DNA of 64,000 nucleotides. It comes from Amphirosellinia nigrospora (lineage: Eukaryota; Ascomycota; Sordariomycetes; Xylariales; Xylariaceae). Location of the stretch: assembly GCA_004123355.1 (NCBI GenBank), contig SCHM01000001.1, positions 4,332,001 to 4,396,000 on the forward strand, in the 5' to 3' direction. Of the stretch, positions 7,323 to 61,934 are shown piece after piece. The translations under genes and the position numbers were made by a program. The notes under the pieces are model-generated. The model was not told the DNA's origin. It made no database searches and was given only the letters and a program-made list of their open reading frames with translations. Positions within the stretch are counted from its first letter, which is position 1, and the number at the start of each line of letters is the position of its first letter.

Positions 7323-10300
7323 ATGGCGTGGGATCACTTATCTATCACGAAGCCGCACTTGGTATACATTATCCTCGGCGGCTTCACCTCACTCTTCATG
7401 CTTTGTTCGTCCGTCATCAAGGAACGCCTTTACATTGGTGAAGCAACGGTCGCAACGTTGGTTGGCGTAATCTTTGGGCCTCATGCCGCCAACTTGATCG
7501 ATCCTAACAGTTGGGGAAACACCGACGAAATCACGCTGGAGTTCTCACGAGTTGTTCTGGTCGTACAATGCTTTGCCGTTGGTGTCGAATTGCCAAAGTA
7601 TTACATGGAGAAACACTGGAAATCCGTGGTCTTCTTGCTTTTTCCAGTCATGACATCTGGCTGGCTCATTACCAGTCTCATTATATGGTGGCTATTTCCC
7701 CTCAATTTTTTGGAGAGTCTTGCTGTAGCTGCATGCGTGACAGCTACCGATCCCGTCCTCGCTTCGTCTGTCGTCGGTAAGGGCAAGTTTGCAAAGCGGG
7801 TACCTAAGCATCTGAGAGACCTTCTCTCGGCTGAGTCTGGCTGTAACGATGGCATGGCCTTCCCCTTTATATACCTGGCCCTCTATCTAATCCAAGATAA
7901 CTTGAGTGCCCGAGAGACCACGTTCCATTGGTTCGTTTATACCATTATCTATGAATGTATCTTTGGTGCCTTCTACGGATTCATCATTGGATTTATTGCC
8001 CGGCACGGTATCAAATATGCCGAAAGGCACGACCTCATTGACCGAGAAAGTTTCTTGGTATTTTACTTCGTCCTAGCCCTTTTTTGTGCTGGCTCGGGTA
8101 GCATCTTAGGGGTCGATGATTTACTTGTTGGGTTTGCAGCCGGCGTTGGATTTTCTAATGACGGTTGGTTTCATGAAAAGACGGAGGAGGCCCACGTCTC
8201 CAACGTTATTGACTTGCTGATCAACCTGGCGTATTTCGTCTATCTGGGCACAATCATTCCCTGGGAGATGTACAACAATTTTGACATAGGCCTATCCGCC
8301 TGGAGGCTCTCAGTCATGTCAATCTTCGTCATCCTGTTTCGTCGCATTCCGATTATGCTAGCATTAAAGCCTATCATCCCGGATGTAAAAACTTGGCGCG
8401 AGGCGCTCTTCGCAGGCCATTTTGGCCCTATTGGCGTTGGGGCTATCTTTGTGGCGATACTCGCCCGTGCTGAACTTGAGACGGAACACACGATACCTCT
8501 CGGGATGATTCCACCGGAAGGAACAGAGCATTATCAAGTCATTCTGTTGGTCTGGCCGATCGTAACATTCATGGTCATCTCATCCATACTTATCCACGGC
8601 TCCTCGGTAGCGGTTTTCACACTTGGGAAGCGTATCAATACTCTATCCTTAACCATGTCATACACCACTGCTCCGGAAGATGGACCCGCTTGGATGAGCC
8701 GCTTGCCTCGTATCTCATCACAATCACGATCGCAGGCACGAACCATGTCTGACACTGACTATGATGATCTTAAGTCGCCAGTGTTCCCGCCAGGAACGCT
8801 GCCGCCAACTGGCATTACGGGGCAATTTTTACGGCGCCAACGCGAGGAAGAGAACCCAAGCCGAGCCGGGAGTCGTGCATCATCTCTGGTCAGTCGGCGG
8901 CGCAGAAAGAAGTGGGATGATGGCATCGGTCCAGGTGGGCCGGTCTCCCAGTCTGCTATTTTCCCCCAGAAGCGAAGTGCAAGTGACCAGGCTGAACCGT
9001 TGTCACCTTCTACGGATGAGAAAGTTGATCCGTTTTCCCCTCGCCGAAGTAGCTCCCCTAGCTTACCCGATGGGGCCATGCGGGAAACCATTGATGAAAA
9101 GTCGGGGGGACCACACCTGAAGAGGATAGTAAAGATGCGGAACAACCAAAATTCGAGGTGTATGATGAAGGGGACCATATTATAATCGAAGATGAGGAAG
9201 GGCAGGTCGTAGCTGTCGAACCGACGGAGCACCACGCAAATTTACCTAGTCCGGAAGCTCTGAAAGAAAAGGCCAAGGAAGAGGTACAGAAACCTAGCTG
9301 GACGTACGACTCGTTGAAGAAGGGCCTTGCCAAGTGGCGTGATGAGGAAGCTCAAAAGCGTAAAGATAAACCAAAGAAGAGCGCAAGCACGCGCCGGCAT
9401 TAGCCTATCAATTTGGCAACACGGTAAGCCATATATATCTTGTTAACATCGAGGTTGAGTGCTGATAATCTTTATAGATCATCGTTGAAGACGAACATGG
9501 TGAAGTTGTCAAAAAGTACGATCTTCCTGCTCAGCGTGAAGGTAGAGACTATGTCGCTACGAGTTTGAAGTACATGGGCATAAGTGGACTCGTGAAGCCA
9601 GGGGACAAAGAGTATAGACCTGCAGAATCGTCTCAGGGCGGGTCAACGGCCGCAACGGGACAGAAGCCAAGTCCCGTCAAGCGGCCATCCGCCGTTGGAT
9701 GGACTGGGTTTGGCCGATCAGGAAATGCCGAGCAGAGGAAGAAGGGCGGCGATACCACAGCCGCCAATCAGAGTGAAGATGAGGACCGCGGAATTCGATT
9801 TACCATTGGCGGCGCTGGTAGGCGGATGACCAAGGATGACTTCCTCAAAGAGGTTCAGAAGCTTGAACGATCGAATCGTGAAGTGCCTAACGACTTGACA
9901 AGTCCAAAAGACACAATAGGCACATCCACGGCGGAGCCCCCAACAGCGTCTGGACTGACTGGAAGTCCAGACTTTGCAAATCCACACATCAGTGTCACGC
10001 AAGCTAGCGATAGCACTCATACTACAAGCAAGTCTCCTACTCGGTCTGACACTCCCACTCGTGGGCGAAGTGGACCAAAAGACAATAACGACAAGCCGAG
10101 CGCCGAGCCCCCGAGACTGCTGCGGAGCGCCGACGTCGACTAGCGGCATTTGCAAGTGTGCAAGATGATGACAGCAACGAGACGCCCGCGGAGAGGCGAA
10201 GGAGAGAGGCGGCATTAGGAGTCGCAGGTCCTTCTTCCGAGGAGAGCGACAGCGATGATGATGACACCCCGAGAGTTCCACCTGAAAGACGAGGCATTAG

Positions 10301-10331
10301 GTTTGCTGAGGGTCCAGCGAAAAGGGCCTAA
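7323..10331 (+). CDS. NHA1: Plasma-membrane Na+(K+)/H+ antiporter, NHA1 type
   Basis: Expels Na+ and K+ in exchange for protons at the plasma membrane; monovalent-cation:proton antiporter family. The first 620 codons are unbroken: about a dozen hydrophobic segments to residue ~440, with the family motif ATDP at 141-144 and the ion-binding Asn-Asp pair (SGCND) at 175-176, then a long charged cytoplasmic tail. A 54-bp intron lies at 9424-9477 (gtaagc...ctgat...tag); the exon before it ends in the conserved AYQFGNT and the next starts IIVEDEHGEVV. The tail ends in acidic Ser/Asp repeats and a conserved GIRF block, stop at 10329. Total is about 985 residues, as in yeast Nha1. Three frame breaks fall in the tail: the G run at 9104-9109, somewhere in 9370-9396, and the C run at 10108-10112. 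Each fits one missing base and I read them as sequence errors. Confidence 0.9.
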
Positions 10332-16279: not shown

Positions 16280-18385
16280 CTAGCCTTCTTCTTTGGTCAC
16301 CACGTCTTCCCCCTCATCGCCAAGCTCAGCCTCGAGTTCTTGTGGTATAGGCTCTCGTGGACCTGCTCTCTGCTGCGCGGCCTCTAGGCCGCCGGCTGTG
16401 ACCCAGAGGAAGTAATCGCTCTTGAACGTGTCAATTTGGTTGAAAAATGAATGAAATCTATCACTCTCGTTAGACGATCTGCTTAACTAGGGCCCATTAG
16501 ATAAAAGAACTAGGGAAATTTGAGCTTACGATTCTCCTTCTCCTCGAGTTCGAATATACGGCGGTAGATATGCTCTTCTTTGAAGGCCAGTATCTCCTTG
16601 TTGTGATTAGAGAAGTTCAGCTCTTCCAGGTTAAGATTCTCAACGGCACGTTTGTTATAGGTGTCAAATACAGGACGCTCCAGAAGCAACCCCAGGCTGG
16701 GTGCTTTGGGAATGCTAATGCGAGCAGACGAGTAGCTCTCCTCAAAGCGCGACATTGGCGTTGCGCACCTCGTAACTAGAACGGCCATGCCAACCATCTT
16801 TCGGATTTGATGCATCATAAAAGACTGCCCATGAACTTTCAGTGAGAGCCACTGGGTGTCGTTAATCTGGATAGGCTCGCGATTCACAACAAACGACTTG
16901 ATCGATCTCTTGGACGCAGGGTCCCCGTGCGACTTTTGTATTGTGTAGTTGTGATAATTTTTTGTGCCGACGTAGTTATCCAAGGCCTGCTGAAGTTGCT
17001 CTAGGCGGTCTGGTGTCACTCGGTACCGTCGTTTAGCTGCAATATATGCAGCTTTGACTTCTTTCAGAGCCTTTTCAACCGGATTCAGTTCCTTCGGCTT
17101 CCGCTCCCCGTTCTGAAGTTCTTCTGCGCCCTCTACTGAAGTCAACTCAGCTGCCACCTTTGTATCATCTGCGTCTCCCGCCGTGGTCGTCTCCGCGGCG
17201 GTAGGCGGTGTACCTTTAATAGGAATGTCTGCTGTTTTAATTGTGTCTTCTTCAGCGGCGACCTCGTCGGTAACTTCGTCGTTATCTTCCTCGCTGGTTT
17301 TAGAGGCGTCCGCTGTAGAAGCAGCGCCGTCCTGCGCGTCCCTATCAGGTGTATGTATACGCCGTTTCACCGCCTCCCGAACACTGGGTTCTAGCCCATC
17401 TAGAATCGGCTGAATGTAATCCTTGTCGACTTGCTCCCAATAGTCCTTAACACCTCCCATGCGCTTTGCATAGTCTTCCTCGAGACCCTTTTCTTTAATT
17501 GATTGTGAGACCTTTCTTGCAAGAAAGCTCTCGGGATGAGGCGGCAATAAGCAATAACTCGGCATAAGATACTCGTACCATCTCGAATCGCAAGATACGT
17601 AGCAGCTAAAGGCGTTATTGGTACGTTGGATGCCCCATACTCGGATTTGCGGAGGTAGGTTTTCGTTGATCTTCTGAACAATATCTGGGTCTTCGATGAT
17701 CAACTTAAGCGAAACCATATTGCCGGCGGCATGGACGCCCTTGTCTGTCCTTGCGCATCGTACGAAGCTCGACTTCTTCGGGTCATCAGCGTTGGCCTTT
17801 GATATGGCGTTAGCAGCGACAAAGGCGCCAAAGAGGTCGCCCTCGATCGTCTTCAGACTATGGTTAATCTGAAGTCCGTGATAACCAGTGCCGGCATAGC
17901 CTATCAGGACAGCAACCTTGCGCTTCGGACGACGCTCCTCGGCTGCAATCTCGGCTTCGGGAAACTGAATGCTCATGTAGCTAGGCTCCGACTTGGCGCC
18001 GCCCCCTTCGGTTTTATCGAATTTTCTACGCTTGCGATCTCGCCAGTCTTCCTGGGGGCCATTCTCGGCGCCTCTGGTGTCACAATCTGGTTAGCAGTGT
18101 TGGCTTTGGTTTCTCAAATAAGAGTGATATGGTTGAGGTCCTAACTTTTGTCCTTGAGGTTGAATTCTCGATTGCGCTTGCCACCTCTTCCGCGACCTGC
18201 CCTGTTCGCACCAGACGGCCTTCCACCCTGTCGCTGACCGTGACCATTGCGATTGGCCGCGTCGTTACCGTTCGAATCCCTGGGCGTTGCGGTGAATTGG
18301 GTGGAAGTTGGCTCGGTAGAAGGTGTCGTGGTAGTCGGGCATCGTCGCGACCTTGGCGGTCGATCGCATTAGTTTCTGCTGCCAT
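16280..18385 (-). CDS. PUS1: tRNA pseudouridine synthase Pus1
   Basis: TruA-family enzyme that converts uridine to pseudouridine at several positions in nuclear tRNAs and snRNA. The main exon (18071-16530) gives 488 continuous codons from an internal Met, with KVAVLIGYAGTGYHGLQIN and the catalytic block RCARTDKGVHAAGN, whose Asp is the nucleophile. A long acidic insert separates this from the C-terminal half (MMHQIRKMVG), as in other fungal Pus1. The N-terminal exon starts at 18385 and ends in a basic Arg/Gly tail (GRGRGGKRNREFNLKDK) before an intron at 18072-18145. The last exon follows a 72-bp intron (16458-16529) and reads FFNQIDTFKSDYFLWVTAGG, then an acidic tail; stop at 16280. Two breaks: one in the unconserved N-terminus, one at the A run 16443-16447. 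Confidence 0.92.
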
Positions 18386-24464: not shown

Positions 24465-26794
24465 ATGGATAACGACAGTGACAAAGGCACCTATGCTGTT
24501 GACCAGATTGAGAAGGCCCAGCTCGCTGTGCCACACGAAGAGGATGAACTTACTGAGCGCGAAGCAAAAAGGGTCATCCGCCAGATTGATCGCAGATTAC
24601 TTGTTACTATTGGCTTTATGTATTGTGTCAGTCTAATAGACAGAACAAACGTTTCGTTTGCTGCCATTGCTGGACTGGCACAAGATCTTGTCTTAACCGG
24701 CAACCGCTACGTGAGCCCTATACTACCTAGGTTTCTCAAGTTTTTTTTGGCAAAGTCTAACTTGTATGTTTAGTCTATCGTAACGTTGGCTTTCTTCCCT
24801 ACTTACATTGTCTTCCACCCACGGCAACTGTCCTTGTCCGCAAAATCGGCCCTCGCATCCATATCTCATCTATCACCATTGCCTGGGGTGCTATTATGTT
24901 AGGGATGGGGTTCGTGAAAACTTTTGGTCAGTTCACGGCCTTACGAGTTGTAATCGGGATTTTGGAGGCTGGATTCTTCCCAGCGCGGTCTATCTGCTGT
25001 AAGAGACACTCCCTTCACCTCGATTCACCTAGCACGGAGGACATTTCTCGGCCTACGGTTCTATATCGCTGGCACCGAAGAGTTACAACTACATTCAAAA
25101 ACGGCTGAGGTTATTGACTGACTCTTCTGTAGGTCAACATGGTATACTCGATGTACGATCCCAACAGAACACGAAATTAAGAGTAGAGATTTTGGACGCC
25201 GCTAATGTTAATACTAGACGAACTGGGCCAACGTTATGGACTCTTCTATCTTATTTTCAGTGACTTCCGCGTTTTCTGGCCTCCTCGCTTTCGGTTTCAT
25301 CCATCTTGAGGGTGCTGGAGGACTGAGAGGCTGGCGATGGATCTTTATAATTGAAGGTACTTTATTTCCAGAGCGAAAGACCACACTGATGACTTGTAAG
25401 CTGACTATTATCAAGGCATTGTTACCATCCTACTCGGCCCTTGGATATTGGCTACTGGTCGACTTTCCCGACTCTAGCCGCAAGAGTGTGAGTAGTTTTA
25501 ACAGAAGAAAAGCGATAAGGAATATAAAATCAAATGGCATCAGATGTTTCTGCTTCTTAATGATGGCCAATGCGGAATTTGCTAACACCTAGATCGCAGT
25601 GGAAGTTCTTGTCCGAGAGAGAGCGCGCCTGGTCGTTCGGCGCGTGAACTCTGACCGTGGTGATGTCGAGGCTCCCAAGTTCTCACTTAAGAAATACCTC
25701 GGGGCCGGAGCTGACTGGAGACTCTGGTATGTTTAAAGCATTCTGGAAACATGATAGTGATTATTAACGATGTGAATTTTCAGGCTTATGGCTTGGTTTT
25801 TTTCGGTAGTACAACTATGTCTTATGCTCAGGCCTTTTTTCTCCCGTAAGAAATTCCCAGAAATTGCTCCCCTCCCTCCCCCTTTTTGATTTGGTATTTT
25901 AAGGCGTTATATGTCCTTTTCTGGACCAAGACAGTGTCCAGCGGCGGTGACGCGCTCTAAATGGCGATAGCTAACGCTAGCGATTGCAGTATTATCCTCA
26001 ATGAGGAGCTTGGTTACGATGTTGGCACTTCCCAAGCCCTTGTTGCTCCTCCGTACGCTTTTGCTGGGATTTCATGTACGCCGTGGGCCTATTAGGAGAT
26101 CGGTATCGCATGCGTGGTCCCATCGTCGTCATCAACATGGTGGTTGCCCTGTGAGTAATTCTCTAACTTATTTATTTCTGTTGCCTCCTTTTGGAGTATC
26201 TAGTCTCGTTCTCGAGCCGAAACAGCACCCGAAACTTTCGAGACCCTCACCGCTACCTCTAGATCTAGCAATCACTGACGTGAAGTGTTCTAGCATCGGT
26301 TTACCTCTCCTAGGCTGGCATCCAGACCCGAAGATTCGATACCTTGGCTCGTTTTTCTTTGTTGCAGGAGCAAATTCCAATGTGCCTGCGACCTTAGCCT
26401 ACCAGGCCACTAACATCCGCGGACAATGGAAGCGCGCTTTGGGCAGCGCCATAATGGTTGGCTTCGGCGGAATTGGTGGGATTGCTGGAAGTTTAGTGTT
26501 CAGGTAAGTCGGAGACCTGTTCTCGTTGACGAAATACCATCGCTAATGATCCACAGGGCTCAAGATAAACCCGGATACAAACCTGGGCTTTGGGCTTGCA
26601 TTGCCGTTTCTCTTTTGAATATCATCATTGTCAGCATCTGCAGCATATCCTTTTACGTCGACAACAAGAAGGCAGATAGAGGCGAAAAGGAACTAGAAGC
26701 CGAAGACGTAGGTCATTATCCTTCAATTTCAGGAGAGTAAACACTAACCATCGAATAGGAGGGTTTCCAACCGGGATTTCGGTACACGCACTGA
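24465..26794 (+). CDS. MFS transporter, DAL5/allantoate-permease type (anion:cation symporter group)
   Basis: Plasma-membrane uptake carrier for a small organic anion or vitamin-like substrate; which one is not visible. Exon 1 (24465-24710) ends in the TM1 region with the family block IDRRLLVTIGFMYCVSLIDR and TNVSFA. Further exons give RKIGPRI, GILEAGFFP, STWYTR, the loop IHLEGAGGLRGWRWIFIIEG, WLLVDFPDS, a long middle loop, and then TNIRGQWKRALGSA, a DAL5-group signature near TM10-11. The last exon follows an intron after EAED and ends GFQPGFRYTH, stop at 26792. At least eight introns. Frame breaks, mostly at short runs (for example GG at 25631, T run 25797-25803), need about seven single-base corrections to read through, which fits sequence error better than selection-free decay. 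Confidence 0.82.
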
Positions 26795-27323: not shown

Positions 27324-29357
27324 ATGGCCTCGGTGTTCCAAAAAGCCGGCGACGCCCTCCGCGGCAAGCCTGGAAACACAAACAGCCAAGAGGAGGGTGC
27401 GTCGTTAAACACAATACTTGAGACGGCCGAGGACCGCGGGGCACTCACGCTGCTGATATGTGACATCACTGAGATTATGCGGAAACGACAGCTTGATACA
27501 TTTGATCCGAACGAAACCGGTCATGAGACGGGCCCTGAAGAATCAGATTTGCTCACCACGAAAGAAGATCAGGGCAAAGAGGACAACCAACAGGTGCCCG
27601 GGGCACCCGTGAAAAACGGGACGCCCAGCTCGCTAAGCGGGAGAAGGAAGTTCAAGAGGAGAGTATGGTAGAGCTCAAAAATGCTTTGCTCAACTTCTTC
27701 GATGACTGGCGCGACAGTGTCATTCTACGAGTCGGAGGCCATTAATTCCAAAAAAACAGCCGAGGACCAATCTCAGCACTCGAAGCTAGAAACTTCTACG
27801 TCAAATACTGAGCTATCGTCGGGCGGACTGGAAACCGATGAGCACACTACCAAGATCGATGAGGTGTTGAGGCAGCTATACCCGCCAGTTAAGACATCTT
27901 TGCGGTCTCTAGATCAATCCAAGAGGATACTGATATTACACTCGATGCTATTACTGATGCTAAGCCTGGAGCATTATAACCGTATTCAAGGACACTCTTG
28001 CTTTACTGTGCGACGTCCTTGGGCTTGTCTATCAAGTCCTGTCAGAAGACGAGGGCCACGTCGCGAAAGGTCTATTGACAGCGGCGAAGCACATGTCGGC
28101 GGATGAAGAAACAAAGCAAAAGGCCGAGGAGAATAGTATGGCCCGAAAATGGAAGATGGGAGCTGCCGGCGTCGCTGGTGCTGCTCTTATCGGCATTACG
28201 GGTGGGTTGGCAGCGCCGTTTCTTGCTGCTGGATAGGAACTGTGCTAGGTGGTATCGGTCTCGGAGCCACTGCTACTGCAGGACTATTGGGGTCGTTAGC
28301 TGGAAGCAGTGTGCTAGTCGGCGGGCTTTTCGGGGCATACGGCGCTCGAATGTCGACCAGGCCATGGAGAAATACACAAGAGATGTCGAAGACTTCGCTT
28401 TTATACCTACGCGCAAGTCAAGCAAAGATGAAGCTTCTCTTCATCGCTTACGAGTTGGGATAGGAATATCTGGTTGGCTGAGCGATGCAAATGATGTCGT
28501 TTTGCCGTGGACAATTCTAGAGCAAAGCCTCGAGACATTTGCTCTGCGTTATGAGGTCGAAGCATTGGAAAGTCTGGGCAATTCTCTACGAACACTGATC
28601 ACCTCACTGGCCTGGAAGTTTGCGAAGAGCGAGATCATTAAACGGACCGTCTTTGCAGCGCTGACGGCAGGTCTTTGGCCGATGTCGTTGACAAATGCTG
28701 GCCGAATCATCGACAATCCCTGGAGTATTGCTAGCCAGCGAGCACAGAAGGCTGGAGAAGTCCTCGCAGATGTTCTAATTCATAAGGCACAGGGTGAGAG
28801 GCCCGTGACTTTAGTCGGGTATTCTCTAGGCGCCAGAGTCATTTATATATGCCTACAACAGCTGGCCAAGCAGAAGGCTTTCGGACTGATTGAAAATGTG
28901 GTACTCCTGGGAGCACCGACGCCTAGCAGTTCTGCTGAATGGCGCCGAATCCGGTCTGTCGTAACGGGTAGGGTTATCAATGCCTACACCAGCAGTGATT
29001 ACATTCTCGCTTTTCTCTACCGAACCAACAGCATCCAATATGGTGTTGCTGGGCTTCAGCCGGTCCTCAACGTGAAGGAGTAGAGAACGTCGACGTAAGC
29101 GACCTCGTTGAAGGGCACACGCTTTACCGGCACGCTACTGCTCCGATTCTGGGACGGCTCGGTTTCGAAGACGTCAATTTTCACGAGCTCAAGCGTGAGG
29201 AGCGATTACTCAAAGAACAGGAGAAGGAGGAAAGCAGAAGCGTGAGGAGGCTGGTAGCATTTACCAACCAGATACTGGCGAGAAGGCGATATTGAAGGAC
29301 AAACAGCTGGGGTCTAATGCGCCGTATGCTGGTGGAAAGGGTCCGACAAATAAATAA
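27324..29357 (+). CDS. DUF726 alpha/beta-hydrolase-fold membrane protein (Mil1/TMCO4-like)
   Basis: Related to yeast Mil1 (YFL034W) and animal TMCO4, membrane-associated proteins with an alpha/beta-hydrolase fold and unclear substrate. The start at 27324 gives an N-terminus with ILETAEDRGALTLLICDITE. A Gly/Ala-rich hydrophobic hairpin follows at about 28160-28340 (GGIGLGATATAGLLGSLAG, then SVLVGGLFGAYGA). The catalytic half is in one long frame: a 'nucleophile elbow' VGYSLGARVIY near 28815, then VVLLGAPTPSSS and the family block GRVINAYTSSDYILAFLYR. After a frame change at about 29080 the tail continues (GHTLYRHATAPILGRLGF) to a Lys/Glu-rich end, stop at 29355. Roughly five frame changes occur in all, several in the hairpin region. 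No intron is needed. The function in fungi is not settled. Confidence 0.8.
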
Positions 29358-36171: not shown

Positions 36172-36554
36172 TGTTTCAACTTCAATTCAGAAGCCGCAAT
36201 TTCATCATAAACGATATATGACTATTGCCTCTTTTACAGCAAGAAAAACATGTACTTTACATGTATCGCAGCCTGCGCTAGTGTCGTGCTAAGAAATAAG
36301 ACACCATTTGCGGGGTCTATACTTCCAGATATAGTAAATGGAGACAAGTGAACTGCTCGGAATTTTCCGTAGCGCTATCGGGGGTGACGGCTGGCTACCT
36401 AGCGGCTTTCTAAGTGGCATGGCATCTACATTCAAAATACCTACCTAACCCCACCTCGTCTGTCACAATCCATCTCTTCACCTAATTTTCTTCTTCCAGT
36501 GTTGAGACCCAACTCTAGATTCATATCCGATTCTGCCTACAGATATCTAACAAG
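36172..36554. other. Intergenic, promoter of the P1B-ATPase gene
   Basis: 383 bp with a CT-rich leader before 36555. No gene seen. Confidence 0.55.
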
Positions 36555-39500: not shown

Positions 39501-40264
39501 CAACCTTCCCATTAGTTACCAACATTCAAAGCTTCCCTGGGAAAGGCGTTGAGGGTTCTATGTCCGGCCTCGTAGTTCGTGCCGGGCATGCTAGCTGGAC
39601 TGGCAGCGAGGCCCTGCCAGAAATTCTGAAGATGCTAGATGATAGCATGACCATCTTGACGGTGACACGGGGCTCAAGCCCCATTGCTGCTTATGGTCTG
39701 CGCACAAGACTTCGAATTGATGCCATTGCAACCGTTGCAAAACTCCGCGAAGACGGTATTAGTATCCACCTTGTATCCGGGGACCAGAACAAAGCTGTGC
39801 AGGCGGTTGCGGCGGCTGTCGGTATCGACCGGGCGAACGTTGTCTCGCAGCGAACGCCTAAGGAGAAGCAGGATTATGTTGCTGCACTTATGTCCCAACC
39901 GGGCAAAGTGGTGATGTTTTGTGGTGACGGGACGAACGACGCTGTGGCTGTGGCACAGGCCGATATTGGTGTGCAACTTAGCGACAGCATCACTAGCGAA
40001 GTCACGCGAAGTGCTGCTGATGTTGTGCTGCTCTCAGGGCTTAGTGGCATCCCCTTCCTTATTGAAATCAGCCAAGCTGCTTTTGCTCGTATCGCATTCA
40101 ACTTCGTCTGGTCGGTTATCTATAATGTCTTTGCTATTCTCCTCGCGGCTGGCGCCTTCGTTCGGGTTCGCATTGCGCCTGCTTATGCGGGCGCCGGTGA
40201 GCTTGTGAGCATTTTGCCAATCATTATTGCTTCTCTAACGATGCTTTTACTACATCGAGTTTGA
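36555..40264 (+). CDS. Heavy-metal P1B-type ATPase with Cys-rich N-terminus (PCA1/CrpA-like)
   Basis: ATP-driven exporter of soft metals (Cu or Cd) in the group of yeast Pca1 and fungal CrpA. The N-terminus starts MGADCCGGKK. Small introns at about 36723-36774 and 36840-36891 precede a cytosolic region with about twelve Cys-Cys pairs (DCCG, DCCS, QCCD, ECCD and others, 36565-37610). One metal-binding domain follows (GMTCNGCSDNL), split by an intron at 37814-37963. Then come the membrane helices, TGES, the ion-path motif SCPCGIGLAAP, the phosphorylation site DKTGTLTES, SEHPVSAAIAKHL, GDGTNDAVAVAQADIGVQL and the end AGELVSILPII. All core motifs are intact. Frame changes at the A run 38399-38401 and the C run 39499-39501 each fit one missing base. 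About 1,100 residues. Metal choice cannot be decided by eye: CPC occurs in both Cu and Cd pumps. Confidence 0.9.
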
Positions 40265-40564: not shown

Positions 40565-43500
40565 CTATCGCTTTTCAATCGTCACCTGTAAAGGCTTCAA
40601 AAACCCCAACATTCTTTCTGAGTCAAAGAAAATCTTGTTGTCCGAAAGATGTCAAAACAAGAAAAATGGTACTTACGTGCGAACCACCAGCGCATCGATA
40701 CCAACCGTTTCCGATAGAGTGCCAGGCGAAGCCCTGTACACATAGCGAAGCCATTTTCTTTTCAACTTCGCTTCTGCCTTCTTGCGCTTGTCCTCCTCCT
40801 CTTTTGCCTTGCGCTTGGTCTCTTCCTTTTCCTTCTTCCTCTTTTCCTTCCTCCTTTCGCTTTTTCTCTTCCTTCTTCCGCTTCTTCTCTTCTTCCTTCT
40901 TCCACTTCTTCTCTTCCTCTTTCTTTCGCTTTTCCTCTTCCATTTTCTTCCAAAATTTCTCGATTTCTTCTCTCCGCTTTGCTATCTCTTGGAGTTTTCT
41001 GTCTTTATTTATGAGTGTATGCCCCACTTACGAATGTCTTGAGAGGAGGTAATGCTTAGATCCGTGAAGGCGTCGTCTAACTGCCGCTGCTTCTTGTTTC
41101 TTTGGGTTGATGACTGATCTACTGATGCTTCACTCCACTTTCTTTTCGGTCTATTACTAGTCGCTGGCGCCTTCTCTATCATCTGCAGTTTTGGTTCAGA
41201 GCCTGTCATCGTTTCTGATGCTGTTTGATATTGAAGCGGCATTGGCGGATAAACGCCATTGTAGGCTTGCTTTGGGAGTTGTATCAACGTTCGACGCATG
41301 GCTTCCATTTTACTCAAAACTGTTGCTTCGTTGATATAGAATACGGGGCCAGCCTGTTCTTCGATTAGTGCGTCGCGTTTGATGTCTCTGCTCAAGTTCT
41401 CAATCGAACGGCCGTTCGCCCAGTTACTCAATTTCACAAGCGACTGCATTGCCTCGACAACTTCACTTGAACTACCATCCGTCAAACCCGTGGTGCGAAA
41501 CCCATCTTCGTTCAGCTTGAGGCTCAAGAGCTCCATCGAGGCCTTCGGCTGTAAATGGGGGAAATGCAGTCGCCCAGGGACCCTTGAGGCTAAACCCGGA
41601 TTTTGGTTCAGCATCTGTATGATCGGATCTTCGTAACCCGCGAAGATGACGACGAGGTGATTCATGAATTTATCCTCGGTGAGGCAGTTCGTAATCTCGT
41701 CAATGGCCTCTTTTCCGTATTGGGTAGTGCTATTGAGTCGATATGCCTCGTCGATGAACAACACCTTCCCTAGAGATGCCTCAAATTGTTTTCGCACCTT
41801 GGGACCTGTCTGCCCAAGGTATTGTCCGATAAGCTCAGTTGCGGATATGACATTGACTTCATGCTTGCAAGAAGACCAGAGCGTTGTAGTATAGTTTCCC
41901 ATATTTTGGCCATACTAGTTTTACCAGTGCCTATATGCCCCAGTTAGCAGCGCCAAGTCTCAACGCACATCGCCACCGGAGATGCTTACCTGGCGGTCCT
42001 GTGAATGTAAAAGTCATATCGAATATCTTGTGGCTAGGAATGTTCCTCTCCCTTCCTCTTATGATTCTCTTGGGCCACAACCTGACTTCTGCTTTCACTT
42101 CCTCGCAGCCGACGACACCCTCGAAAAGTTTCTCTACATCAATACAAGCGTTGGAGATGCGCTGATATTCCGGATCAATATCACTAGGTTGTAGATGGAC
42201 TGGTTGGCCAAACTGAGAAGAGTCATCCCGAACCCGCTCTAAGTAACGCCTCTGAGCCGCATCAAGAATAATGTCAACTTCGCCAGCATTTCCAAAATTG
42301 AGTTTATGTCGCTGCCTTTCCAGTATTTCCATCGCGATATCTTCAACATCTTTACCTGCGTTCAAACCGCGTCTTTTGAGATTTGTTTCCAAATATCTTG
42401 TAGCTGCTCAGCGCTGTAGTCCTTGAACACAAATGCCGTCTCCAGAGGAAACCGACGTTTGAATCCCGGGTTCGTATCCTGGTACATTTCTACCATCTTG
42501 TCCTTGTAGCCAAGCAGTAAGATACACCGATCTTCCCCAGGTTGACTGTGTATGGCTCCAACCAAAGTATCAATGATATTGGACCTATAAGAGTCCGCCT
42601 GGCCACCAACTCCATTGGTGTTGAACTTACTACCAAATCCGTACGCCTCATCGATGATCAAAACTTTTCCTTTCGTAGAATCGAGAATCTCCTTAGTTTT
42701 AGCCTCGCTCCCACCAAGGTGGCCTGAAATGAAATCTGCCGGTGTTCTCGTAACGACTTCGTCGTTGCTAAGTCCCAGCTCGACGAGTATCTGTCCGTAT
42801 AGTTGAGCGACTGTCGTCTTGCCGGTGCCCGGGTTACCGAGGAATACTTTGTGCAGTGATGTTTGCAATAGTGGAAGATCCATCAGTTCACGCATACGGT
42901 TGTGGAGGACCTCCTTGATCATGCCACGTAGGGCAATTTTGACTTCTGTTAAGCCAATCATCCCGTCTAACTTGTCTAAGGCGTCGCTTTTGAAATTTTC
43001 TCCATAACCTGGGCCAAGCAAGTCACCTTCGGTGAAGGCATGGTGGTCAACGGAATTCCAGCCATTGTTCTCGCCCAGTCTATGCATCAAGCGCGACTTT
43101 ATCTGGGCTACCGTGCTCTCGACAGCCCATGCATTACCAGAGTCTCCTACACCGCCGGCTCGAAGAATTCGTCGGGCGACTACTTTCAAGAGAAACTCTC
43201 TATCTTGTGGTTGCTGCTGACAGATCGGGAACTTCATGGATGGGTTGATTCGCGCACGAATCTGAGCCTGCAACATGTGTAGTATCTCGCCCTCGTTGTA
43301 GCCTCTGAGTTCACATGTGTGGCCTATTCGGTCACGGATCGTCTTGTTATGTCCATAAAATCTTTCCATGTCCTCTTTATACCCTGCAAATATGAAAACG
43401 ACCTTCTCCTCGGGTTCCTCATAGACTCAATAATACGATTGAGAACATCTACGCCACCACCGGTATGTGCAGTTACAAGTTGATGGACGTCGTCGATGAA

Positions 43501-43937
43501 CAAGGCACCTACGCCGGCTTGGGTTATCTCGTTTATCAGTGTTTCGATTGCTGGAATCCCCTTTGAAGCGAGAGAAGAGCCGCTGTTCTCTTTGTATGTC
43601 CACTCGTGGTCCGGGCCGAAGACTTCGAGTAGGGCGAGGAATCTCGCGTACAATCTAGCAACAGTTGTTTTCCCTGGGCCCCTCTGTTAGCTCTATGAAA
43701 TACTCATGTTTGGATCCAATCCGAACCTGTTCCAGGACCGCCTAGAAATACGGCGCTGAGTAGCTCATCGCCGGTGTTGTGCACTGTCTGACCGGGCTTA
43801 ATCTCGTACCAAATATTCAGAAATAGTTCTTTGGCTCTCTGAAGCCCGATCATATCCATAAGTTCATCGAGAACTGCATTCTGGTGTCCGAGTTTCTTCT
43901 CGTCTTGCCATTTCTGTTTAGGCTGTTTGTTGTTCAT
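40565..43937 (-). CDS. Triple-AAA ATPase, CbxX/CfqX (SpoVK-like) type
   Basis: Large ATPase with three AAA modules of the CbxX/CfqX group (related to Rubisco-activase-like CbbX and bacillar SpoVK); the fungal substrate is unknown. Module 1: Walker A GGPGTGKTTVARLYARF (spliced over the intron 43674-43726), Walker B ALFIDDVHQL. Module 2: FLGNPGTGKTTVAQLYGQIL and KVLIIDEAYGFG. Module 3: TGPPGTGKTSMAKI (spliced over the intron 41931-41989) and KVLFIDEAYRL. A Lys/Glu-rich coiled coil (about 40960-40760) follows, then a cysteine motif (CVQGFAWHS, GWYRCAGGSH) and a last exon of a few residues after an intron at 40586-40676. Both Walker motifs are present in all modules, so it should be an active ATPase. 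Frame changes occur near 43420, 41830 and 41010. About 1,020 residues; no signal peptide. Confidence 0.85.
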
Positions 43938-44609
43938 GTTCCTGAGTGTAAGTCACTGTCTGTAGTTTTTATCAATGTTCAGGATTTTTGAGTTTGATTA
44001 CAGACTGTCGGAAGCATTTTCAAAAGCCGGGGCGAGAGTAGAATATATATTCGGGCCATCCGCTTTCTATATAGTTCTGCTTCTGATGGTTGAATCTGTT
44101 GTATGCCTCTTGATCGTGAAAGAATCTGCTAGATAGTATAACTCGCTACATTGACTAACTCACTTAAATTCGAATTCATTCCACTTAATGGTCGACTTGA
44201 TTGCTGGGAACTTAGTACCCGAACTAATAGCCACACCCGAGAATTTGGCTTGACCAAGCTAACGGGCGTATAGGGTGTATAGACTCGTATCTCGTAGAGC
44301 TCATAACTTATCCGAATACCGTGGAAAGTATGGCTATCTAGGTTCTCCTTTTAGTTCGCTGCATCTTTAAAGCTCACAAGGACCGCGGTTCAGAGGAAGG
44401 TTAACATTGCACTTATGCTAAGAGATAAACATATGTCCTTTAAAACAAGCCCAGACGTGGTATTAAATTTCCAAATTGTTACAGAGCCAAATCCTTACAC
44501 AGGCGCTAGCCGTTAGCAACGCCAACGCCAACGCCAACCGCTATAGCACTATGTCATCAATACCCAGTTTGAGTTTCCTAAATCACCAAACGCCAGCATT
44601 TCCTAAAAC
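43938..44609. other. Intergenic
   Basis: Promoter of the AAA gene and 3' flank of ATG17. Contains a (GCCAAC)n run at about 44514-44541. No gene seen. Confidence 0.55.
44514..44541. repeat. Short (GCCAAC)n tandem repeat
   Basis: About four copies of a 6-bp unit just downstream of the ATG17 stop. Confidence 0.6.
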
Positions 44610-46247
44610 CTACTGTCTATTATCCGTGAGGTGGTGACGCCGTCTCGCACCCTCGACGACACTCTTCTCTAGGATCGGGGTGCCGCCGGATGCTCGGGGA
44701 TCCGGCCGACTATCTGTGGATGGCACGACATCCCATCTCAAGATAGGATCGTCCATGCCCGGCCATAGATCTGTGGGCAAATGATCTGCAACCTCTTGGC
44801 GGAACGTGTCTCGCTGCCTACGATCCATATCAATGATCTTCTCAACGTTGTCTTTCGCACTTCTCCAAATGCTCAGGATCTTCTCTTCGACTGTTCTCCG
44901 TCGTTCGACTTCAAGAATGAGATGGTCATATGTGCCCGCATATTTCTCATAGAAAGTCCTCAACTCTTCCATCTCGGAAATCTTATCGTGTATTGTGTCC
45001 TGCTCCTCTACCCATCTGTCTCGAAACTCATTTTCAGCAGATACATAACTCTGGATTCTAGTACTAATGTCCTCCAGCGCGCGGAATGCATCTAGTGTAC
45101 CAAGATATCCCGATTTCACCTCAGTTGTCTGCTCGTCTAGATTGCTAAAGTCTGCTTCCACTGAGTGAAGACGTTCGTTTAGTTCTTGAACTACATCTTC
45201 TACTTCAGAAGAGTCCTGCACAAGCACTTCAAGCATCTGCGCCCTATCTTCAGGCGATAATGGCTGCAAATCAGGCATATGCGATCCTTGGTCAGGTATA
45301 ACGCCCGATATAGATACATCATCGCCTTCCTGGGATTGAGTCGCCTCGGCAGCTTTGATCCTAGCGAGGGCTGAGCCGCCTTCAGTCGTCCGTACTGCAG
45401 TGACGCATAGGTCAAAATGTTGCGTCAGAGACGTGAGGAGCTCAGCCATAGCATGCGAATTGTCAATCATAGCAGACAGGAGGTGTAAAAGCGGAGGTCC
45501 ACTCGACGAGGCGGCTGGAGATGTGGGTGAGGGGACAGAGGACATGATGGCTTTGAGATTACGCAAGTCGGCTTCGAACTGGAGAAGGTCTCTATCGAAA
45601 GATTGCTGTGTCGTCTGGAAAGACCCGGGTTAGTGATATGCAAAGCAACCTCAACCGAATATGCTCTCAATCCTCTCAAAACCGTGCATGGTGTGATGCG
45701 AAAAGGGACACAAGGGGGCACAAGGGTATCATTGCTTACCTGGAGCGCCTGGATATTTTCCTTCAGGGCCTCCCTCATCCGGTCCACCTGAGCCTCGTCA
45801 ACGAAGTCGAGTAAGCTCCGCTTCTCTTCGCCGGAGGGCGGAATGCACTGTTCACCGCGCGGCCACGTAGAATGTTCATGGTGTCCTCCAGCCGTCCATT
45901 AGTCGCATCCAAGGCCTTGATGACTTGCTTGAACTCCCGCTTGCCATTGTCATAGGTGCGCGTCAAGCCCTTGCGCACACGCAGAAGCAACCGCATCTGT
46001 TCCCGATGCCACGACGGAGAAACTGGGTCTGTGCCGAGAGGATGACTGACTCCTCGTGGGCTTGGCGGGCGGCGTGGACGAGGTCGTTTGCACGCAGGAC
46101 GAGCCTCATGGACGAGAGTGAGCGCTTGGCATCGAGCAGGTGCTGGACGAGGGTCTCAACAGGAACGGAGTCGGGGTAGGAGGATGGCACGTGAAGAGAG
46201 GTTGGACGCGACGCTGAATGCGACGAGGTCGGGCTTATTGAAGCCAT
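44610..46247 (-). CDS. ATG17: Autophagy scaffold protein Atg17
   Basis: Scaffold of the Atg1 kinase complex at the pre-autophagosomal structure; forms a crescent-shaped helical dimer. Start at 46247; an N-terminal Ser/Pro tail leads to the conserved block [20 protein letters not shown], then [20 protein letters not shown]. Two frame changes (CCC at 46002-46004 and CC at 45831-45832 on the plus strand; each fits one missing G of the gene) link to [19 protein letters not shown] and [21 protein letters not shown] 125-bp intron (45615-45739, gtaagc...ccag) precedes the long exon starting [20 protein letters not shown], mostly coiled-coil, ending near the family block [11 protein letters not shown] and a basic tail. 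About 504 residues, the usual size for filamentous fungi. No membrane segment. Confidence 0.9.
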
Positions 46248-54734: not shown

Positions 54735-56466
54735 ATGGCCTCTCCATCATCGCTTATGGCGAAGCCTCTCAAGGCTGTCTCCCCTCACGTCGACGTCGAA
54801 TCTCGGAAGAGACTAGTGGCGATGGAGATGTCACAGACATTGGAAGAGATGTGCTCGAGCGACGCTTACGGCTAAAAGTCGACCTACGACTATGCACCAT
54901 CGCAGGCATATTATGCTCGCTGAACTTGCTGGATTCGGTGTTATCAGCTCGGCCGCCGTGACATCGTTGCCCAAGGACTTGGGACTGACGGGGAATCGCT
55001 TTAGCATCGCCATCTTCATCTTCACCATCAGTTCCATTGCCTTTCAGCTACCATCGACGCTAGCCGTGCGCACTTTTGGTCCGCGACTATGGTTCTCCTT
55101 CATAACTTTCTCATTCGGCATCATCACAATGGCCACCGCTTTCATCCAGACCTGGCAGCAGATGATTGCTTTACGCGTTCTGCTCGGCGCTGCCATGAGT
55201 GGGATTTATCCCGGGTTGACATACCTAATTTCGACGTGGTATCCTCGCCGAGAACAGCAGACACGTTTCGCATTCCTGCAAATTGGCGAGGTCGTCATTT
55301 TGGCGACAGGTGGAATCGTCAATTTCGGGCTTAACCAATTGAACGGCCGGGCGGTCTCGCTGGTTGGCGATTACATGTTTTTAGTGCAAGGTCTCATCTC
55401 GATCGTGATCGGCCTGATCACTTACGTTTGGATGGTCGACTTTCCGGAAAATTCCATAAATCCTTCTGGTTCCTGACAGCCAAAGAACAAGAGCTTGCCG
55501 TTTGCCCGTATAAATGCGGATCGCAAAGACGTCGAGATTGAAGAGTTCGCTTGGTCCAAAGTTTTTGGTGCGTATTTTCTCGGAGCCATCTTATTATTTG
55601 GCAGCTTTCGGAGCACAATATTCACTTCTTCGGATGAAAGAACGTCTAGAAGCTTCTGAAACCCGTATTAATCCCGCTCTAGATGGCGATAGCTGACTCC
55701 ATATGTTGCAGTCCATGCTAAGGATCCGAAGATCTTACGGTTTTGCGGTTATGTTTTTTCTGCTCAACCTCGTCTCTACGAGCTTATCGTATTTTTGCCT
55801 CAAATTTTACAAAACGGAATTAGGCGTGAGTGAAATCATTACAATTTCCCCCTTTTTCTTTATTCTTTTGTTCGTTGCTATTCCACTTCGATAAGCGTTA
55901 TCTATTGTCAGGTATTTCTATAAATACTAACTTCGATGTGTATATTAAGTTTAGCGAAAATCAAGCGATTCTTTCTCAACGCTCCGCCATACTACTATGC
56001 TGTGATACCGGTACTCCTCTCCTCCATCGTAGGAGACAAGTTCCGCGTCAGGGGGCCAGTCATTGTTTTCACTGTGTTACCCTGATTGTCGGCTTTAGTT
56101 TGCTAGGGTTTTGCCAGCCAGGACGCCGTGCGATATCTTGGCACCTTCCTGGCACGGGCGCCTATGTTTCGAACTGGGCTGCCTTGTCTGCGTATCAGGC
56201 AAATAACAACTGGGCAATGGAAGCGTGCCTTCACCGCAGCCACGGTTACGGCTCTGAATGGGGCCGGTGGTATTGCCGGCAGCTTCATTGTTCGATCTGA
56301 GGAGGCACCTCGTTACCCCACGGCTATATACGTGTCCATCGGTTCACACATCTTAATGATAGCCATCGTGGCGTTGTTCTCCGTGTATTTCCACTTCGCC
56401 AACAAGCTAGCTGCGAGTGGCAAGAAGGTACTCGAGGGAGTTGAGGGGTTTAGATACACCCTTTAA
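54735..56466 (+). CDS. MFS transporter, DAL5-type, second copy
   Basis: Plasma-membrane carrier of the same broad group as the gene at 24465. Start at 54735; a hydrophilic N-terminus leads, across frame changes, to VLERRLRLKVDLRLCTIAGI and LLDS (TM1). One frame then runs 54892-55476: SSAAVTSLPKDLGLTGNRFS, RVLLGAAMSGIYPGLTYLIS, TWYPRREQQTRFAF and VWMVDFPENS, giving TM2-TM6. An intron near 55664-55710 precedes the middle loop (VHAKDPKILRF) and TM7, and another near 55830-55960 precedes APPYYYAVIPVLLSSIVGDK. The end has TTGQWKRAFTAATVTALNG and AGGIAGSFIVR, closing in VEGFRYTL at 56464. Frame breaks include GG at 54937-54938 and the T run at 55792-55796. Convergent with the ferric reductase gene. 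Substrate not visible. Confidence 0.82.
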
Positions 56467-56658: not shown

Positions 56659-58567
56659 TTACCAGCCAAACTTCTCTACACGCAAATCAATATCTATACC
56701 AGACCGAAGCTGATGCGCGCAGGCATTTCTCACGGTCCTATTAAGCCCATCTGGCCCTGATACTACCACGCCGATATCAGTGATATAGGCGCTGGCAACC
56801 TCCGAGACGTATCTAGCAACATCGGGTCTACCCGCTTCGACGGTAGGCTGAGGAATAGTAATATGGACACCAGCTTGCCGCAGTTTATCTAAGCGATCTG
56901 TAGATAACCATGATCGCTGAGATCTAGAATGAATAACCCACATGAAATGGATTTGTCGCTTCCCTGGGTGTACTACCGCCAGATCCCAGAGAAGGGGGAA
57001 CACAACCGCCAGGCCGGACCCGCCGGCGATGATTATGGCTGACTTGCTCGCCCGAAGCGCATTAATGGGGTCTTGTGATCCATAAGGTCCGTCTACTCTA
57101 ACGGAAATAGTAGAGTTGAGTTGTGCATGTATGAGTAACTCCGACGTGAATCCAGAATAAGCTCGGATTAAGAGGTCGAACTGCGCTGACAGGTCGCCAT
57201 GGCTCGGAGCTGCGGATGCGATTGTAAACGGATGTGCTTGCAATGCGTTACTTCCGCCAAATTTGGGGATCGATATGAAGACGTGGTCAGCAGGATGCCA
57301 TCCGTATAGAATGTTGCGGCCAAAAGACCGCCGAAGCATCTTCTGCCTCTCTACTCGCGGTATAGCCCAATTGGCCGACAGTAACACCGTGTCGCCGTCT
57401 TCAAGAACCTTGATGTTAGCAGCGATAACGGCCGACTTCAAGCCTATCCTCCACACAATCCGATCCAAGACGAAGATCACGAGCGACGCCAGGACGTACG
57501 GTCGGCTTGTGGAGAAGTGCAGCCAGAGAAAAAGGAGCGCCGCGATTTGCAAGAGGACATGAGAAGCGAGAAACAACTCATACCACCTCTGACGGAAACT
57601 CGCAAGCGACGTGAAGTAGAGAAACTCATATGACACGAATGCGCCTATCCCAAGAAGTATCAAGGGATGCGTGAAATATTCCCAGAGGCTTCGAGTTGCC
57701 AGCCATTCGGGTTCAAGGTACAGCCTCCAAATCAACATGCCCGCGAAATGCACGAGGGCCTCGAGGCACATCAACTCGCCCACTCGGCGGTGGTATATAT
57801 TAAGCGCCTCATACGAACGGCCCGTGAGTAGTTTCAGGGGCTGATTCTTGGCCGCCAGGAGATACAAGAGTGGCAGGTTCACTATGAATACGTATCCTGC
57901 GCGGTCGGCGAATGCGAAAAAATAGCGCAGCTCAAGGGGGAGCTTGAAGAGATGGATAAAGCCGTTGAGGCCGTAATATCCGATCACGAAGAGCGATGTT
58001 GCGTTCGAGGGTAGCGAGCGGTTGATCAATGGTATCGGGCGCGGCTGGTACATCAGCCATGAATGAATAATAGCAAATATGCTAGTTTCGATCGGCTTGG
58101 GCGGCCAGTCCTGTCGGACCCCAAGCAGCGGCTGCCGTTCAGCATCGGCATATGCATCCTTGGGATAGGTGGCTCGCGACGATAGTGAGCCCTCCAGAGT
58201 GCTACTAGAAGAGGAATCGGCGCTATGTTCACTATCCTCGGCTGCCCCGGGAACTGTATCGCCGCCATCGCCTATACGGACTCTCTCGATCGCTAGTCTT
58301 TTATGACTCCTTCTAATGCTTTGATAAATATATGATATGGCAAAAAAATAGAATAATTAGAAGAACTAAGTTATACGAAGCGACGATGGTGCGACCGTCA
58401 AGGATATACTGGATTAAATCCCGTAAATACTCTAATTTCTCAGGATCATCCAAGGGTAACTCGGGAGCTGTTGTAACTCGGAGGGGAGATGCAAGTTGGG
58501 ACGTCCTGAGGCTTTGGCGAAAGACATCGCGTGCCCATTCTCTATCGCCAATGCTAAGTCCTGGCAT
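56659..58567 (-). CDS. Ferric/cupric reductase (FRE family, NOX-like)
   Basis: Plasma-membrane flavocytochrome that moves electrons from NADPH through FAD and two hemes to reduce Fe(III) or Cu(II) outside the cell. ATG at 58567; N-terminus DREWARDVFRQSLRTSQLAS, a first hydrophobic segment, then a frame change at the seven-A run 58342-58348 (one base too many) and a Ser-rich charged loop. The rest is 464 unbroken codons from an internal Met at 58053. The heme histidines are at positions 88, 102, 165 and 179 of that block: two pairs, each spaced 14. Then FAD site HPFTIAS, NADPH-side GGSGLAVVFPLLWDL, GVVVSGPDGLNRTVR and the terminal VEKFGW. About 635 residues and no intron. Divergent from the DUF218 gene and convergent with the MFS gene. 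Iron regulation is likely by family; I saw no clear GATA-factor site. Confidence 0.9.
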
Positions 58568-58900
58568 GATTGCGACACGACGAACGGGCTCGCTTAGTCT
58601 GTCCACCTTCAGGGCTTTAGAAGAGAAAGTCTAACGGAGGGCCTCGAGGATCTTATCAGATTGATAGCCGGGATACCTGGTCCCTGTGGATCATCTCCGT
58701 GGGGCAACGCGTATCTTTTTGCTCTCTGTGCGTTTCTAGAGGCCGACCAAAGCAGTCGGGCCCATTTGGTCAGATCATGGGCCGATTGCGCGAGACCAAA
58801 TCAACTATCAACTCCGACCTTCACGGACGTTATCACCTGTGTACGGCAGTGTGCCGCGGTTGACAGGGGTCGGTGAATTAGGCCCCTAACCACCTATCTA
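58568..58900. other. Shared divergent promoter
   Basis: 333 bp between the ferric reductase (-) and DUF218 (+) genes; no further feature identified. Confidence 0.5.
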
Positions 58901-59567
58901 ATGTCAGCAGGCGTTGTAGCAATGCCAGATGTACAGCAGGATGCTGAGACACTCTACGATATCACCAGCTACACGCGAACATTGAGCAAAAGGCAGATGC
59001 CGTTTTCTGCCTGTGCAGCCTCGACACGCGCGTGGCGGAGCGGGCCGCTCAATTATTTCTTGACGGCTACGGCGACTACCTCATTTTCTCTGGGGGTCGG
59101 GCAAGCTGACCCACGGCCGCTTCGACAAGCCCGAAGCCGAAGTCTTCGCAGATATCGCCCGTGGAATGGGTATACCTGCGGCGAAGCTTATAGTTGAGCC
59201 TCGATCGACCAACACTGGCGAGAATGTGCGCTATACGTACGCCCTCCTTCAAGAAAAACAGCTATCTTTGCGCTCGTTCATCCTCGTCCAAAAACCCTAC
59301 ATGGAACGCAGAACATACGCAACATTTAAAAAGCAGTGGCCCGACCAAACCACCGAGATCCTCGTGACATCACCACGGTTGAGCTGGAAGGAGTATCCGA
59401 ATAGGGAAAATCCAATAGATTTGGTCATTAATATAGCAGTTGGTGACCTAATTCGAATACGAGATTACCCAGCGAAAGGTTTCCAGATCCACCAGGACAT
59501 CCCAGACGAGGTTTGGGCAGCAGCGCAGCGATTGATTCAGAGAGGATACAACAGTCACTTGCCATAG
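58901..59567 (+). CDS. DUF218 (YdcF/SanA-like) protein
   Basis: Rossmann-like fold domain found in bacterial YdcF and SanA and in fungal proteins; substrate unknown. Start at 58901 gives VVAMPDVQQDAETLYD; after frame changes it reads YHQLHANIEQKADAVFCLCS, DTRVAERAAQLFLDGYGDYL, IFSGG, then KLTHGRFDKPEAEVFADIAR. From 59166 one frame is unbroken: GIPAAKLIVEPRSTNTGENV, the family core (Glu-x-x-Ser/Thr, Thr-x-Glu-Asn), FILVQKPYMERRTYATFKKQ and a charged C-terminus to 59567. About 222 residues, no signal peptide seen and no intron. At least three single-base breaks in the first 260 bases. Convergent with the FAD monooxygenase gene. Confidence 0.8.
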
Positions 59568-59618
59568 CTCATATTTTATATTGTTTTCTCTACGCGCCGC
59601 AATAGATGGCATTGTTGT

Positions 59619-61934
59619 CTACCCTCGCTTGTCGCGACCGTCGCCCGTCTCTTGCGCCAAATAATCGAATTTGCTTATCGTCTCTGCCATTACATCAACG
59701 TTCCACATGAACTCGCGGGATTCTCTGTCGCTCCATTGATCCGGATTTGCCGTGCCCATCCCTCGGCTCGCAGCTCGAATGGCATCATCTCTTTTTCTTT
59801 GTTCCTCGCCGTCTGGTAGATGCAAGGTGTGGCCCGTGGTCTTCGCACTAGCCTGGATCCATTCGCTGCGATCCTTCCTGATCAACTGGTATAACTCCAG
59901 AGCCAGCTCGATCTGGTCCGTGCAAGTGAAAGCCATAGCTAGCACTGCAGCGTCTTCTATCGCATTGGCTGCTCCTTGCGCGACATATGGAAGCATATAA
60001 TCTAAGGGAAACAGAAGTTAGTTTATCCTGTATACGACAGATGTTTTAGGTAGTTTAGGAAGGACATGTCGTCGTATTAAGTGCCAAATGAAAGGGTGAC
60101 TGGGTAATATTCAAAGGGACTTACGGCATGCATCACCAGCGAGAGCTATTCTACCCTTCGTCCATGTCGGAAGAGGAAACATGTTGTTCATGGGGGTTTC
60201 CAAGAACCCAGTGCTAGGCACATGGCTGATCAAAGTCTGGACTAGGGGACACCACTCACGGTAATTCAACGATCTTCTCTTTCCTTCCGTGTGTTGTCCA
60301 AGATGTCTTTTGCGCTTTCTTACCGTCGGCGACGCGGATAATAACCACATTGTACAAAGTGTTGTTTCTCAGGGATAGGCCATGATATGACCACCAGGGC
60401 CCAAATACCGCAGACCTCGATTCTTATTAAGAAGATTCATTACTTTTTCGTCGTGCTTGACCAGTTCTCTAGGTAGCAGAAATCGATATGCTGACTCTCC
60501 ACTACAATTTGAAGTCAGCTCCCATCCTTCTAGGCGCAGCCCAAGAAAATGCATTTATAAAACGAAATAGCATCAAGGCATGATAGGGATAATATAGACG
60601 CGAGAGTTGCTTACACGGGGGCAAGCTGATCGACGTGACCACTAGCAGCAGCCATTCGCCGTCTGACCATTGAGTTCATTCCATCAGCTGCGAGGATCAA
60701 GTCCGCTGACATCCAAGTATCTTTCCCATGGTAGCGTACAAGAATTCGCCTAGCACAGCGTTAGCTTTTCTCGACCGAACCTTTCCTCGAAGATTGCCCA
60801 GAGCGATACAGGAGCCAACACGATATCAAGGTCTGGCAGACATATAGAGTAGGGCCACATACTAGAGCGAATAATGTTAGTCTTTCTTTCTCACGAAGAC
60901 GCTCTCGCGATCCGTTGTGTGATTAGAAAATCATCACAGATAAGAAGATGGATGCTGTACCGGTAGAAATTGCTGATCAACATCAATAACCTCATGGTCT
61001 TTCAAGACCTTACATCCAGATACTATCGCGGCGTCTAACAGTACGCGTTGTAGATCAGCCCTATGAATTACCGCGAGTGGTGCGCCGAAATGGTCCTCAA
61101 CATCCGGGACTAAGGGGATGGACCCTAATTCTTCATCATTCTTCCACCGTCTAAGTCGGGTTAGTAAACTTTCCACCGAAATAGTAGCCAGCGGGAAATC
61201 TTGTAGTTTGCCTCATGTGTACATACCTTAAACTAATTTTCTCTAACACCGTAGCATGTTTCATGATTTCGTCAAGCAAATCGAACCTGCGTAGGATTCG
61301 GGCACAATTCGGAGAAAGTTGGATTCCTGCTCCAACTTCTGCGATGTCCATTCTTTTTTCAAGGATCACTTTAACATTAGGGTCAGCCCGTTCGTTTCCA
61401 AATTGAAATCCTATATAAGGGCTACGGGTAGGTCCTGAATGCCCGATTCGCGAATCTCGTCGCAACGAGTCTTTCTGCTTCTTAAAGTGTCATAATAGGA
61501 GGGAATGACACTTACTGCAATACTCAACGTCAGCAATCGCTATTTCAATAGTTTCATCCCGAAAGTGTAAAAGGGTTCAAGTACAATTTCAATTCCGGAA
61601 CAGCACTTTGGTTAATGAAAGAAGGAATAAAATGAAGCTCCAGATTACGTACCCAACATCATGTCCTGTTTTCCGCATACACTGGAACACTTAGGGTTAG
61701 TTACCGCTATTTGGAGGGTGATCGTGAGGGAATGGAGAGCTTCTAGACACTCCATTATCTCTAGAAAGTAAATCTCATGCTCCTAAAGCTGCTAAAAACA
61801 AGAGGGAAATAACTCTAGGAGTTACGTACGAGGCCAATAGCAAGCCCACCAATACCCCCGCCGACCACAATGACCGAGAGCGATCTCACTGCTCGCCGTT
61901 CCGAGAAGACCGAGTCGTCATACTGTCTATCCAT
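59619..61934 (-). CDS. FAD-dependent monooxygenase, salicylate-hydroxylase-like (group A)
   Basis: NAD(P)H- and FAD-dependent aromatic or related hydroxylase. ATG at 61934; the first exon carries the Rossmann fingerprint SVIVVGGGIGGLAIGL, ending at an intron with a gtacgt donor. Small exons give RKTGHDV and ILEKRMDIAEVGAGIQLSPN, with CARILRRFDLLDEI. A following exon reads FGAPLAVIHRADLQRVLLDA (the DG-type loop region). Later exons give GFLETPMNNMFPLPTWTKGR and the second FAD motif IALAGDAC, spliced to MLPYVAQGAANAIEDAAVLA. The C-terminus is charged, stop at 59619. At least six introns, several with nearby frame changes, so exon ends are approximate. The three flavoenzyme motifs (GxGxxG, DG, GD) are all visible. 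The true substrate cannot be read. It lies next to DUF218, ferric reductase and MFS genes. Confidence 0.85.

Follow-up and report, generated by a model that had tools for sequence, protein, structure and literature searches.

Single-Base Frame Breaks in Conserved Genes of an Amphirosellinia nigrospora Assembly Most Likely Reflect Residual Consensus Errors

Genes and Frame Breaks in the Window

The window, that is, the whole stretch of 64,000 bases analysed here, spans contig C1 from base 4332001 to base 4396000 in a 48.1 Mb assembly of Amphirosellinia nigrospora consisting of 11 contigs. Its genes are listed in Table 1, together with nine short runs of a single base at which an initial annotation had placed one-base frame breaks caused by base-calling error. 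All nine runs are present in the sequence. Frames were followed with a gene model that allows both introns and one-base shifts. Its training set comprised the window and 11 further loci from 8 contigs, and posteriors were taken from it. A call required a posterior mass of at least 0.7 for a sequence one base short and at least 0.6 for one base long, and the prior of the final model favoured short over long by 2.7 to 1. The coding sequence of the window, about 30.8 kb, gave 21 one-base-short and 2 one-base-long calls, which is more than chance. For each listed run, the posterior of a one-base-short break within 40 bases was recorded. By this measure four of the nine sites (9104, 10108, 38399, and 39499) are supported, 16443 moderately and 35305 weakly so, and those at 25797, 55792, and 58342 are not.

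Table 1. Genes and single-base runs in the window, with results of the frame-tracking gene model and of Pfam searches.
Feature	Position	Strand	Result
NHA1-type alkali cation/H+ antiporter gene	7323..10331	+	Breaks near 9074-9116, 9364-9403, and 10089-10143 (last by model only); intron 9424-9477
PUS1 (tRNA pseudouridine synthase)	16280..18385	-	Catalytic part unbroken; doubtful break in tail after intron
MFS-like gene with many predicted introns	24465..26794	+	MFS_1 match weak (E 5.7e-4, below cut-off)
DUF726 gene	27324..29357	+	Three frames; split in two by model; breaks near 28236 and 28358-28418, no room for intron
Open frames around the 35305 run	34887..36292	+	No assigned family; posterior 0.38
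PCA1-type P1B metal ATPase gene (model bounds)	36555..40264	+	Breaks near 38401 and 39497-39515; call masses 0.82, 0.84
AAA ATPase gene with AAA_lid_6	40575..43937	-	Breaks near 42375 and 43420; call masses 0.97, 0.89
ATG17	44506..46247	-	Breaks near 45849 and 46005; call masses 0.98, 0.98
MFS transporter gene	54913..56466	+	Intron at 55826; MFS_1 E 3.4e-21 in frame running through 55792
Ferric reductase gene	56659..58567	-	Ferric_reduct, FAD_binding_8, and NAD_binding_6 share one frame
DUF218 gene	58777..59567	+	Calls near 58973 and 59090; masses 0.95, 0.99
G run	9104-9109		Posterior short 0.98
C run	10108-10112		Posterior short 0.95
A run	16443-16447		Posterior short 0.63, long 0.10
T run	25797-25803		Posterior short 0.09
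G run	35305-35309		Posterior short 0.38
A run	38399-38401		Posterior short 0.81
C run	39499-39501		Posterior short 0.84
T run	55792-55796		Posterior short 0.00
A run	58342-58348		Posterior short 0.02, long 0.06

Two genes show breaks at places where an intron does not fit. Pfam searches in the window were made on chosen stretches and strands, each frame being searched separately with X in place of stops. In the NHA1-type gene, Na_H_Exchanger and positions 1-129 of Nha1_C are matched in one frame, positions 142-237 in the next frame, and positions 228-424 in the third, and inspection of the coordinates by hand showed that intron room is absent at both junctions between the Nha1_C pieces. The three calls in this gene have masses of 0.99, 0.99, and 0.95. 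Thus, the claimed break at 9104 is borne out by a change of frame in the Pfam match as well as by the gene model, and a further one near 9364-9403, seen by both methods, had been overlooked. At 10108 the model is the sole support, because the Nha1_C match in the preceding frame is drawn on to 10206, beyond the stop of that frame. The DUF726 gene, whose breaks had also gone unlisted, gives the same picture: profile pieces 4-35, 35-94, and 74-312 lie in three frames and meet or overlap. Further calls were made in it at 27610, 27935, 28327, 29071, and 29233.

In the PCA1-type ATPase gene, matches to HMA_PCA1, E1-E2_ATPase, and Hydrolase are spread over three frames, and the posteriors support the two breaks proposed there, at 38399 and 39499. 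The AAA gene is matched by AAA in two frames and by AAA_lid_6 in the third, and ATG17 by two pieces of ATG17_like in different frames, 128-355 and, below the cut-off, 41-99. For these three genes, the multi-frame matches taken alone may also be compatible with an intron. DUF218 was matched with an E-value of 1.5e-14 in one of the two frames searched. The calls in the AAA, ATG17, and DUF218 genes all lie outside the sites listed initially.

Other proposed breaks fared less well. PUS1 had been described as broken; its catalytic part lies in one open frame of 526 amino acids, of which two stretches match PDB 7r9f (E 9.7e-106) and which also matches PseudoU_synth_1 in Pfam, so the claim is reduced to the moderate posterior in the tail, at 16443. 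Searched against the PDB, this tail returned 4 chains (best E 0.49), none of them from PUS1. In the MFS transporter gene, the MFS_1 frame passes unbroken through the T run at 55792, and the model starts its intron only behind it. The long break proposed at 58342 in the ferric reductase gene is likewise disfavoured by the model, which prefers an intron with its donor at 58376; this site may be such an intron or a break within a membrane segment. The MFS-like gene has calls at 24819 (mass 0.75) and 26068 (mass 0.70), and the break claimed at 25797 is not recovered. Around the run at 35305, none of the three plus-strand frames gave a Pfam match.

Behaviour of the Gene Model

The balance between introns and breaks depends on the prior. 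In a first version with a low break prior, several breaks were replaced by weak introns, and no break was called at all with a prior of 1e-6. That version placed introns in the PCA1-type ATPase gene where breaks are now called, and took the two DUF218 sites as a single long break; it was superseded by posteriors under higher priors. In break-free simulated sequence, the final model made one false short call in 82 kb of coding sequence. Among planted breaks, 53/123 at random places and 41/97 in runs were recovered, with 2 false short calls in each set, and these figures are a best case since the sequence was simulated from the very model under test. As a control, 50 kb of E. coli K-12 gave 7 calls (4 short, 3 long). 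Six of them fall at a gene-gene junction or within about 20 bases of one, and the other lies inside a gene near its end. Most of the control calls concern genes that overlap or adjoin, an arrangement for which the model has no representation.

Breaks Elsewhere in the Assembly

The breaks are not confined to the window. The 11 other loci on 8 contigs gave 32 short calls in 53.1 kb of coding sequence, ranging from 0 to 7 per locus, the locus on C8 having none. These loci are what remained of 14 drawn, after three AT-rich ones, L008 (GC 0.36), L009, and L012 (both GC 0.11 to 0.12), had been kept out of the model. Ten Hsp70-family loci, with which the other ten of 20 overlap, gave 11 short calls in 22.6 kb. 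The overall rate is similar in the window, the 11 loci, and the Hsp70-family loci, and hence the phenomenon is not local.

Chaperone genes were also scanned by profiles without the gene model. In 25.1 kb of sequence aligned to the profiles, a total in which overlaps enter twice, Hsp70 and Cpn60/CCT matches change frame at 16 junctions with fewer than 40 extra bases, in 11 of 20 loci, one junction being borderline with 38 extra bases; 8 other junctions have intron room and one stays in frame. Hsp70 contributes 7 breaks (5/10 loci) and Cpn60/CCT contributes 9 (6/10 loci), and they occur on C1, C4, C5, C6, C7, and C8. Some of the loci are divergent family members, and three of the nine Cpn60 breaks fall in a single locus where the pieces overlap and contain stops. 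The chaperone break rate is 0.64 per kb. CCT subunits are presumably essential, and loss of a chaperonin gene should be lethal. Thus, a living fungus should not carry such breaks.

Direction, Run Length, and Rate

Losses of one base dominate. Short calls outnumber long ones by 64 to 7 under the prior and thresholds given above, by 21 to 4 with equal priors, and by 12 to 4 among the chaperone breaks, where no prior enters. The raw rate is 64 calls in 106.4 kb, or 0.60 per kb, and becomes about 1.4 per kb when corrected for the recall of 53/123.

It had been claimed that most breaks sit at short runs. A run of at least 4 lies inside the placement interval in 55% of the 64 calls against 46% of random coding places, a value matched by 99 of 1000 random sets, and the posterior mass on such runs is 0.096 against 0.052, matched by none of 1000. 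Calibration on planted breaks puts the share of breaks at runs of at least 4 at about 25% (95% range 2 to 51%). Posterior mass is thus enriched at such runs, but the count of calls does not clearly exceed chance, and the claimed majority finds weak support. A/T runs reach 19 in an AT-rich block, so that long runs are not simply shortened.

Ribosomal DNA provides a comparison outside protein-coding genes. Over 1752 to 2490 matched bases, with masked stretches excluded, three rDNA copies are free of substitutions. They differ by one base at each of three runs of G or C and by one 4-base gap; four further gap columns in the alignment are merely the end of a locus.

Origin of the Breaks

It is very probable that residual one-base errors in the consensus of a long-read assembly explain the breaks and that the genes of the fungus are intact. 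Incomplete correction would have left errors, mostly lost bases, in all parts of the genome, with some 0.6 to 1.4 of them in each kb of coding sequence, and the genes that appear broken would be whole in the living organism. The platform was presumably nanopore or something similar, and the cause is proposed on the same footing. The base-calling explanation given initially is thus upheld by the similar rate elsewhere, by the breaks in chaperone families, and by rDNA copies that differ in run length without substitutions. The modest homopolymer share of about 25% is below what we would expect of typical nanopore error and counts against it, as do the interval count at runs, the A/T runs that reach 19, and the 4-base gap between rDNA copies. 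Part of the listed breaks could instead be ordinary short introns or intron boundaries that were misread, a possible but rather unlikely reading that is compatible with consensus error elsewhere. It would account for the intact frame at 55792 with its intron from 55826, for the intron favoured at 58342, and for the catalytic frame of PUS1, which is open throughout; however, it fails where profile matches meet directly, as in NHA1, DUF726, and the 16 chaperone-family junctions.

Several adjacent genes are broken, as would be seen if the mutations were real and the region were decaying. However, breaks are about as frequent on other contigs, they reach chaperonin genes whose loss is presumed lethal, and rDNA copies vary in run length without substitutions, so that true loss of function is very improbable. 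Genome-wide programmed ribosomal frameshifting is known in Euplotes, and breaks that lie within conserved genes with one direction dominant recall that system. However, slippery XXXYYYZ heptamers, counted on either strand and in any heptamer frame, show no enrichment, occurring in 10 of the 64 intervals where 8.9 (sd 2.8) would be expected, both directions of shift occur, and rDNA, although untranslated, has length differences of one base that point to sequence error. Frameshifting of this kind is extremely improbable here, and scarcely any credence can be given to a version in which all base counts are correct and the fungus changes frame during translation at a great number of sites that share no fixed slippery sequence.

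Under the preferred explanation of consensus error, the breaks are most likely neither novel nor a real feature of the genome, but a known kind of assembly artefact. In the portion of the literature considered, work on filamentous ascomycetes names small frame-breaking indels as the chief limit on the accuracy of nanopore sequencing, reduced at high coverage; at lower coverage, indels persist in and outside homopolymers (PMC9453082). The indels of those assemblies fall in single-copy conserved genes, more often at low coverage (PMC9453082). The present assembly resembles them, and differs in that only an estimated quarter of its breaks lie at runs of at least 4 and in that its platform is a presumed one. 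As far as the description of Kastor goes, the long-read cases it treats are also similar, with read-error frameshifts lending genes the look of pseudogenes, but that tool compares with curated sequences, unlike the approach used here (PMC12007338). For many genes, including those of chaperone families, this assembly would yield wrong gene models, false claims of gene loss, and incorrect counts of pseudogenes. Annotators should take this as a quality warning, and correction with accurate reads is needed ahead of annotation.

Other Features of the Assembly

Contig C10 carries eukaryotic rDNA, and the ITS appears Xylariales-like. Three 5.8S rRNA genes lie near the low end of C10 (C10:104-58492), with 104 bases between the contig end and the first of them, which suggests that C10 stops inside an rDNA array. 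The rDNA copies L016, L017, and L018 also differ by one 4-base gap, which may be real. The AT-rich loci L009 (C6:500001-510000) and L012 (C7:1500001-1510000) have a G+C content of 11 to 12% against about 48% in the window, and we would guess that they are possibly RIP-degraded or centromeric DNA. Finally, 48 consecutive C stand at L007:9607-9654 (C5, about 509607-509654) in otherwise ordinary surroundings, possibly another assembly artefact.
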